The notes under the pieces were generated by a model. That model had not been told where the DNA came from and searched no databases. It was given only the letters and a program-made list of their open reading frames with translations. The translations under genes and the position numbers were made by a program. From Pseudonocardia sp. TRM90224 (lineage in GTDB: Bacteria; Actinomycetota; Actinomycetes; Mycobacteriales; Pseudonocardiaceae), in assembly GCF_021245725.1 (NCBI RefSeq), contig NZ_JAJGSX010000005.1, positions 124,001 through 188,000 of the forward strand: DNA of 64,000 nucleotides, read 5' to 3'. Shown in pieces: positions 59,765 to 61,635 of the stretch (its first letter is position 1; each line of letters begins with the position of its first letter).

Positions 59765-60196
59765 CTAGATGAGGCCGGGAAGTACCTCCTCCTGCGCCTG
59801 CGCGTAGGTGTCCTCGTGCTCGTCCTGATAGCGCTGCCACGCGGCGGCGTCCCAGATCTCCGCCCGCGTGAACGCGCCGATGACAACGCATTCCTTGGTG
59901 AGTCCCGCGTAGCGCCGCAGCTCCGGGGTGATGGCTATGCGGCCCTGCGCGTCGGGGTTCTGCTCGTCGGTCCCGGAGAACAGGTTGCGCTGGAAGACCC
60001 TGGCCGACTCGCTCGTGAGCGGCGCCGACGCGACCTTGCGGGCGAGCTCCGTGAAGGCTTCGCGGGTGAACACGTACAGGCAGTGGTCCTGCCCCTTCGT
60101 GATCATCAGCCCGCCTCGCAGCTCGTCGCGAAATTTCGCGGGCAGCGTCAACCGCCCCTTGTCGTCCAGCTTCGGGGTGTAGGTGCCGAGGAACAC
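59765..60196 (-). CDS. mraZ: Transcriptional regulator MraZ
   Basis: 143 residues, started at the GTG ([21 protein letters not shown]) preceded by GGAGGTGGGG. Two AbrB-like domains are visible: [22 protein letters not shown] and [25 protein letters not shown], as in all MraZ. It forms a ring that binds direct repeats in its own promoter and controls the division cluster. GTGGTG/GTGGGG repeats at 10-bp period lie 43-68 bp upstream. Confidence 0.96.
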
Positions 60197-60238
60197 CGGC
60201 CCCACCTCCACCTGCGGCCTCCGTTGTGCCCCAGCGAT

Positions 60239-60264
60239 CACCACACTACCCCACTTCGCACCAC
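60239..60264 (-). promoter_or_regulatory. MraZ operator: three direct repeats at 10-bp period
   Basis: Read toward mraZ: GTGGTG-N4-GTGGGG-N4-GTGGTG. MraZ is known to bind short TGGGN-like direct repeats spaced by one helical turn before its own gene. The spacing, position and orientation match. Binding was not tested. Confidence 0.75.
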
Positions 60265-60429
60265 CGTCAACCGGAACAAGCCGCCAAACGGCAGGTGACG
60301 ATCAACAAACCTGCAGGTCAGAGGCAGGGGGGCGAAGTGGGGGGCCGCAGGGCACCACCCGGTTGCGGTACGGCCGGAACGCTCCGTAGCGGTCCGAAAA
60401 GGTCTCTACAGCCCTCGAAATCCGGGCGA

Positions 60430-60478
60430 ATGGGGGGTTGTGGGGCCATCCGAACGGCCGCTGTGGGGCACGGTGGGG
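60430..60478 (+). promoter_or_regulatory. Second MraZ-like repeat cluster on the moxR side
   Basis: Read toward moxR: ATGGGG-N4-GTGGGG at 60430-60445, then GTGGGG-N4-GTGGGG at 60463-60478, each pair at exact 10-bp period and 23 bp between pairs. It is in the 437-bp gap 60197-60633, about 155 bp before moxR. MraZ control of moxR is inference; poly-G bias is a caveat. The rest of the gap shows no gene. Confidence 0.5.
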
Positions 60479-60633
60479 GGACCTGCAGAATGGCGCCGGC
60501 CGACCGGGCGAGCGGCACTGCCGATGTTTGAGAGACTATTCGCTGGTCCCGGTGAGTTCGGGGGCCGGGAACGGCCGAGAACAGCCCGAGAACAGCCCCG
60601 AGAACAGCTCTGCGAGCAGCGCGAGGAGGTCGA

Positions 60634-61635
60634 GTGACCACGACGAGCAGTCGCCCCGGGGTCGACGGGGATCCCGTCGGGCTGGCCGAGGTGGCCGATC
60701 TGGCCGGTCGCATCGCCACGAACGTCCAGCGGGTCATCGTCGGCAAGCCGGAGGTCGTGCGGCTTGCGCTCGTCACGCTCCTCGCCGAAGGGCACCTGCT
60801 GGTCGAGGACGTGCCTGGGGTCGGGAAGACCTCGCTGGCCAAGGCGCTCGCCCGGTCCATCGACTGCTCGGTGAGCCGCGTGCAGTTCACCCCCGACCTG
60901 CTGCCCGGCGACATCACCGGGATGTCCATCTACAACCGGCAGACCACCGAGTTCGAGTTCCGCCCCGGCCCGGTCTTCGCGAACATCGTGATCGCCGACG
61001 AGATCAACAGAGCGTCGCCGAAGACGCAGTCGGCGTTGCTGGAATGCATGGCCGAGCACCAGGTCACCGTCGACGGCGCCACCTACGCGCTGGCGAACCC
61101 GTTCATGGTGATCGCCACCCAGAACCCGGTCGAGATGGACGGCACCTACCCGCTGCCCGAGGCGCAGCGCGACCGCTTCACCGCACGCATCAGCGTCGGC
61201 TACCCCGACGCGGCCGCCGAGCTGGCGATGGTCGACGAGCACGCGATGCAGGACCCGATGTACATGCTGCGTCCCGTCACCGACGCGCGCCGGCTCTGCG
61301 CGGTCATCGAGGCGGTGCGCCGCGTGCACGTCGGGCCGGAGGTCCGGCAGTACTGCGTCGAGCTGGTCGGCACCACCCGCCGCCTCCCAGACGTCCGGCT
61401 CGGCGCATCGCCGCGCGCAACGTTGCAGCTGGTGCGCGCGGCACGGGCACAGGCCGCGCTGGCCGGGCGCGGGTTCGTCGTGCCCGACGACGTGCAGTCG
61501 GTCGCCGTGCCCGTGCTGGCCCACCGGTTGCTGCTGACCCCGGAGGCGCAGGCGTCGCGGCGTTCGGCGTCCGACCTCGTCCGGACCCTCGTCGGCAGGC
61601 AGGCCGTGCCCGCGCCGGCCCGACCGGGCGCCTGA
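60634..61635 (+). CDS. MoxR-family AAA ATPase
   Basis: 333 residues of the AAA_3/MoxR type. Walker A is PGVGKTS at 61-67, Walker B ends in Asp122-Glu123 of IADEINRASPK, sensor 1 is VIATQNPVEMDGTYPLPEAQ and the lid follows. MoxR ATPases assist maturation of protein complexes together with DUF58 (von Willebrand-like) partners; such a partner gene follows after 19 bp. GTG start with a strong GAGGAGG site. Divergent from mraZ. Confidence 0.94.
   Translation: MTTTSSRPGVDGDPVGLAEVADLAGRIATNVQRVIVGKPEVVRLALVTLLAEGHLLVEDVPGVGKTSLAKALARSIDCSVSRVQFTPDLLPGDITGMSIYNRQTTEFEFRPGPVFANIVIADEINRASPKTQSALLECMAEHQVTVDGATYALANPFMVIATQNPVEMDGTYPLPEAQRDRFTARISVGYPDAAAELAMVDEHAMQDPMYMLRPVTDARRLCAVIEAVRRVHVGPEVRQYCVELVGTTRRLPDVRLGASPRATLQLVRAARAQAALAGRGFVVPDDVQSVAVPVLAHRLLLTPEAQASRRSASDLVRTLVGRQAVPAPARPGA

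Follow-up and report, generated by a model that had tools for sequence, protein, structure and literature searches.

The mraZ-moxR divergent gap

The window analysed here, a 64,000-nucleotide stretch from the 9.38-Mb genome of Pseudonocardia sp. TRM90224, contains a 437-bp gap between the divergent genes mraZ and moxR. Pfam search placed the mraZ product in the MraZ domain family PF02381 (136 bits against a cut-off of 23, in two stretches), and its PDB relatives (1n0e, 9qlr, 9qlg, and 9sx6) are all named MraZ; recent MraZ structures include 9qlr, 9qlg, 9r4j, 9sx6, and 9sz7. On the other side, the two partners of moxR in its operon, DUF58 (48 bits) and TgpA_N (117 bits), both lie on the plus strand. 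The features of the region are as follows.

59768..60196, minus strand: mraZ (PF02381), GTG start at 60196
60230..60264, minus strand: putative proximal MraZ operator, four boxes, conserved in relatives
60243..60270, minus strand: predicted mraZ promoter, recognized by eye, conserved in the genus, -35 TTGACG and -10 TAGTGT
60314..60320, plus strand: CAGGTCA element, conserved, 67 bp from the anchor TACCCCAC (60247)
60327..60342, plus strand: near distal pair, first box degenerate, GGGGGGCGAAGTGGGG, 80 bp from the anchor
60430..60445, plus strand: far distal pair, ATGGGGGGTTGTGGGG, 183 bp from the anchor
60463..60478, plus strand: far distal pair, GTGGGGCACGGTGGGG, 216 bp from the anchor
60527..60537, plus strand: TTTGAnAnACT element, here TTTGAGAGACT, conserved, accompanying moxR, promoter-like
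60634..61635, plus strand: moxR, AAA_3 ATPase (214 bits), opening the moxR-DUF58-TgpA_N operon

The sequence-only reading had described GTGGGG-like repeats with a 10-bp period on both sides of the gap, and four minus-strand boxes and three plus-strand pairs were indeed found there. The periodicity itself held on the mraZ side, where the boxes form a continuous 10-bp run; the moxR side proved to consist of two-box pairs rather than a run. The proximal boxes, GTGGT (60264-60260), GTGGG (60254-60250), GTGGT (60244-60240), and CTGGG (60234-60230), have their 5' ends at 60264, 60254, 60244, and 60234, a pitch of exactly 10 bp, and overlap the -35 (TTGACG, 60270-60265) and -10 (TAGTGT, 60248-60243) of the inferred mraZ promoter, which are separated by a 16-bp spacer. 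Both the proximal and the distal parts are direct repeats of GTG/TGGG boxes at 10-bp pitch, as in MraZ operators (a box definition taken in part from PMC7761207 and PMC8475190). The proximal part lies at the mraZ promoter, and the distal array extends from about 80 bp upstream outwards in inverted orientation. A further GTGGG at 60201-60205 on the minus strand was rejected as an operator, as it sits in the mraZ ribosome-binding region, beyond the range of the repeats first described. The string GCGAAGTGGGG occurs at 60249-60259 and 60332-60342 on opposite strands, making an inverted repeat of the operator and the near distal pair, and the GAA ahead of the second box in this context was found again in several relatives.

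All distances were taken from the operator anchor TACCCCAC. The near distal pair has its boxes at 60327 and 60337, the first being GGGGGG; the pair at 60430/60440 reads ATGGGG and then GTGGGG, and its 183-bp distance recurs in relatives; the pair at 60463/60473 has GTGGGG in both boxes. A relaxed pair pattern, composed after the boxes had been seen, matched three times in the gap. A wider pattern averaged 0.003 matches over 2000 dinucleotide shuffles, and no shuffle yielded three. A chance origin of the pairs is ruled out by the shuffles. Across the whole window, lone GTGGG words were no commoner than expected (164 observed, 202 expected), which places the signal in the spacing and not in the word. 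On its two strands, the genome contains 47 copies of the exact string GTGGG-N5-GTGGG and 78 of its backwards form; a single exact pair therefore proves little, and conservation in relatives is what decides. Twelve stretches of this genome holding 13 of the 47 exact pairs were read for further MraZ targets, and no cluster of pairs was seen in them. The window's own pair is among the other 34, and additional targets may exist, such as ftsEX, which is a target in C. glutamicum.

The TTTGAnAnACT element is present in 38 of 42 distinct Pseudonocardia gaps and is kept upstream of three of six moxR orthologs that are not adjacent to mraZ (L162-L164, not L165-L167). As judged from sequence, it is outside the MraZ array and goes with moxR, and it could be a promoter or operator of the moxR operon. 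No clear -10 was seen on reading 3' of the element in the window.

Conservation, spacing, and helical phase of the distal pairs

By MraZ, the genome's nearest relatives are Pseudonocardia. Relatives were represented by 130 mraZ loci, which contain some genomes twice. For the spacing, shuffle, and pooled-period analyses, 88 were kept after removal of 7 without an anchor, 4 that were too short, and then those sharing more than 30% of 8-mers. The sequence-only reading had allowed that the moxR-side repeats might not be conserved and might reflect simple G-run bias. Instead, exact plus-strand GTGGG-N5-GTGGG pairs numbered 174 and were found in 78 of the 88 non-redundant mraZ upstream regions (10 had none), against a single pair on the opposite strand and a shuffle mean of 0.6. 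Against these 174 pairs, box words with a different base at the T formed 0 pairs for GAGGG, 1 for GCGGG, and 28 for GGGGG. G-run bias is ruled out by this kept T together with the exact spacing. Among the distinct Pseudonocardia gaps, pairs were present in 42 of 42.

Plus-strand GTGGG spacing peaked at 10 (174), 12 (46), 22 (78), 23 (44), and 32-34 bp, whereas the minus strand gave one case at 10 bp. These peaks indicate that the boxes are organized as pairs and that several pairs, when present, follow one another at intervals of about 22 bp. Two Actinomycetospora loci (L100 and L103) carry eight exact pairs each, mainly in 22-bp steps, the maximum of the set. In the 173 anchored regions (of 180 distinct regions; 700 bp read, mostly class Actinomycetes), the near pair lay 77-80 bp from the anchor in 55, 88-92 bp in 13, and 101 bp once, and 119 contained some strict GTGGRG pair. 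A double-pair pattern of four boxes with 22-23 bp between pairs was matched six times in 60 whole genomes (368 Mb), in five of the genomes; all six matches sit 221-396 bp upstream of mraZ, and the reversed control gave none. The window's own array fails this strict pattern. Distal pairs carried the A of GTGGAG-type boxes in 16 of 22 cases where the proximal box was GTGGAG and in 27 of 221 otherwise (Fisher p ~2e-9), which is weak evidence of covariation because clades confound it.

In other classes of the phylum, the survey comprised 26 loci from 78 matching genomes, of which two belonged to the class already seen; 19 of the remaining 24 were without a plus-strand pair, and the five with plus-strand GTGG pairs (L267 and L269-L272) all belong to one family (f57). 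Three loci of another class (L261, L263, and L265) carry a second CCAC-N6-CCAC pair about 120-135 bp beyond the promoter boxes, oriented as those boxes are and not inverted.

The CAGGTCA element, which is preceded in the window by an AT-rich stretch, also holds its position. In the 173 anchored loci, a CAGGTCA-type word gave 81 matches at a distance of 66-68 bp, which corresponds to about -80 relative to the inferred start, and 20 elsewhere. Some of the off-position words lie roughly whole turns away (77, 89, 100, 111, and 119), and others do not (45, 74, and 82).

Pair-to-operator distances clustered at about 79, 90, 183, 194, 204, 215, 226, 236, 247, 258, and 268 bp, mainly in Pseudonocardia and near relatives, with a separate set of 143 to 191 bp in Mycobacterium loci. 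For the 38 Pseudonocardia loci of the phase test, the unique distances from the last pair to the operator had a period of 10.55 bp, with 0 of 5000 jitters as strong, and those from the first pair a period of 10.80 bp (4 of 5000). The distal sites of Pseudonocardia are thus in phase with the promoter operator, as in a repression loop. When all clades were pooled, the best period was 11.2-11.4 bp, not 10.5; the pooled phase signal was 19.2, and the control word CACCC reached 9.99, about half.

The same analysis of the moxR side gave a weaker result. Unique last-pair distances to the moxR element were matched by 433 of 5000 jitters, and phase appeared when relatives were left uncollapsed (last pair, 2 of 5000; first pair, 9 of 5000), which we take to reflect relatedness of the genomes, although the moxR element may have a part in the phasing of the pairs. 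The phase between the moxR element and the mraZ operator was weak (100 of 5000, unique values), and no phase was found in the pair-to-moxR-start distances of the 38 Pseudonocardia loci.

Association of the array with mraZ and with moxR

Of the 69 loci with moxR no more than 1 kb away, 64 had pairs, as did 44 of the 55 in which at least 1.4 kb showed no moxR homolog; this neighbourhood count omits 6 of the 130 loci, which had short contigs or moxR beyond 1 kb. At one Actinomycetospora locus (L105) and three of the Mycobacterium group (L110, L112, and L118), the next gene appears to be DUF3040-type (checked by Pfam for L105 and L112) and lies on mraZ's strand, so that these arrays face no divergent gene. 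Conversely, six moxR orthologs located away from mraZ (L162-L167, 64-76% identity) had no pair in the 1.4 kb upstream, and neither did any of 22 more distant homologs. These belong to 30 moxR-type loci read from a longer homolog list, among which the window's locus and another from Pseudonocardia carry pairs. In the six genomes with a non-adjacent ortholog, the mraZ region has a GTGG[GA]G pair in five, and in the sixth (L036) the boxes are 11 bp apart; the boxes do not accompany moxR away from mraZ. Spacing between the last pair and the moxR element varied from 37 to 303 bp, with one outlier at 1170, and the distance between the last pair and the moxR start was not constant either.

The sequence-only reading had proposed that MraZ, by binding on both sides, regulates the division cluster and the moxR operon together. 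Its premise stands, inasmuch as conserved MraZ-type boxes occur on both sides; the link from moxR to division through the plus-strand boxes is not supported, given pairs that persist without moxR, moxR homologs elsewhere that lack them, and a phase that follows the mraZ operator and, more weakly, the moxR element. Control of the moxR-DUF58-TgpA operon by MraZ at these boxes would fit their place upstream of moxR, pointing along it, their frequency where moxR is near and in every distinct Pseudonocardia gap, and the phase to the moxR element among uncollapsed relatives; against the moxR-less loci, the six bare orthologs, and the lack of any set distance to the moxR element or start, we regard it as rather unlikely. 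As the main role of the array, moxR control was rejected in view of the moxR-less loci, the orthologs away from mraZ, and the phase. The evidence ties the plus-strand array to mraZ more than to moxR. It may influence moxR where the gap is shared, and in Pseudonocardia it happens to fall in such a gap. Regulator boxes in a divergent gap may, as a general caution, serve one gene and not both.

A genus without MraZ bears on the same question. In genus f31/g40, which we infer to be Streptomyces, a PF02381 search found no MraZ in any of 13 genomes (G074, G092, G107, and ten others; loci L230-L242), which are large and retain both mraW and moxR. The 1.5 kb upstream of mraW lacked plus-strand GTGG pairs in all 13, and minus-strand GTGG pairs were likewise missing near the mraW promoter, the sole one lying 1337 bp off in L241. 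CAGGTCA was not found near this promoter in the 13 genomes and occurred upstream of mraW in 3, at a distance of at least 507 bp; in two upstream sequences that were read, a TTTAGTCCAC remnant and GGTCAA are visible. Boxes and MraZ are missing together in this one genus, consistent with an operator that depends on MraZ, and the loss of MraZ there was probably a single event.

A probable two-part MraZ operator and alternatives to it

In published descriptions, MraZ binds repeats at its promoter and represses its own cluster (accessible parts of PMC8475190 and PMC7761207), and it takes the form of an octameric ring (accessible parts of PMC7761207). From the features computed here, namely the boxes with their strand, spacing, conservation, and phase, the association with mraZ over moxR, and the absence in the MraZ-less genus, we infer that MraZ is the protein bound at the distal pairs. 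The plus-strand pairs probably constitute a distal MraZ operator array, inverted and in helical phase, through which the dcw cluster would be autoregulated by looping or by cooperative assembly on one face. The ring-forming repressor would occupy the four promoter boxes and, mostly about 80 to 300 bp upstream, two-box sites that point the opposite way on the same helix face. A single MraZ assembly would then bridge operator and array, either closing a short loop or wrapping the DNA on one face, and this bridging would tighten or buffer the autorepression of mraZ, mraW, and the later genes, making the response steep or keeping it poised. An inverted distal array on the operator's helix face is what would be expected if one assembly holds both. 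A wider version, in which an MraZ nucleoprotein loop controls the dcw cluster of Actinomycetes, with a ring assembly connecting the promoter operator to the inverted same-face array and the CAGGTCA word between the two as an architectural or co-factor site, is put forward more tentatively, at somewhat short of even chances. MraZ would then act on division genes as a cooperative switch with long reach.

Of the other explanations, the most serious is that a different protein, perhaps together with CAGGTCA, binds the distal pairs and, from this upstream position, either activates the mraZ promoter or represses it. We know of no other actinobacterial factor with such a direct-repeat site, and word, pitch, and base tendency are the same in both parts, with the pairs gone along with MraZ in one genus; we therefore hold this explanation to be unlikely, even though the two-box pairs 22-23 bp apart are unlike the four-box proximal operator, a CAGGTCA-type word recurs at 66-68 bp from the anchor, and MtrA is reported to bind the Dietzia mraZ promoter (accessible part of PMC9602371). 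The array might instead titrate MraZ, serving as a decoy whose uptake of the protein determines the threshold of repression with no bridging, as its highly variable copy number, up to eight exact pairs, would allow. A decoy requires neither helical phase nor a preferred distance, and both were observed, which makes titration very unlikely. A G-quadruplex or a plain G-run bias is scarcely credible: the sequence is G-rich, and in S. aureus dcw expression is reportedly affected by a G-quadruplex in the promoter region of mraZ (accessible part of PMC11796246), but the T is retained, the spacing is exact, and the phase is kept.

MraZ is conserved across a wide range of bacteria, and to our knowledge the purpose of its large ring is unsettled. 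A conserved, phased two-part operator would give the ring a testable one and would add cooperative long-range control to the actinobacterial division cluster, mycobacteria included.

The lac, gal, ara, and deo systems form repression loops with helically phased distal operators. The array proposed here resembles them in its distant operators, one oligomeric regulator, and a common helix face; it differs in its two-box sites, which number one to eight, are frequently spaced 22-23 bp and are inverted to the promoter site, and in the regulator being the ring-forming MraZ, which is here the presumed agent of looping. In a literature search, with subscription papers mostly outside it, no title or abstract opening among those listed described an inverted distal MraZ array or MraZ looping, and the accessible parts of PMC9395523 and PMC5138195 contain nothing on either. 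The S. aureus G-quadruplex, as described in the accessible part of PMC11796246, is likewise a G-rich element near the mraZ promoter, whereas the strict T, the spacing rules, and the distal position seen here misfit a G-run element. There is also a close likeness to MraZ autoregulation in E. coli, Mollicutes, Burkholderia, and C. glutamicum, in which mraZ is first in the cluster, its own promoter carries repeats of about 10-bp pitch, and MraZ represses its own cluster (accessible parts of PMC8475190 and PMC7761207); those parts describe a single promoter repeat cluster, whereas the loci analysed here carry a second, distant array inverted to the first.
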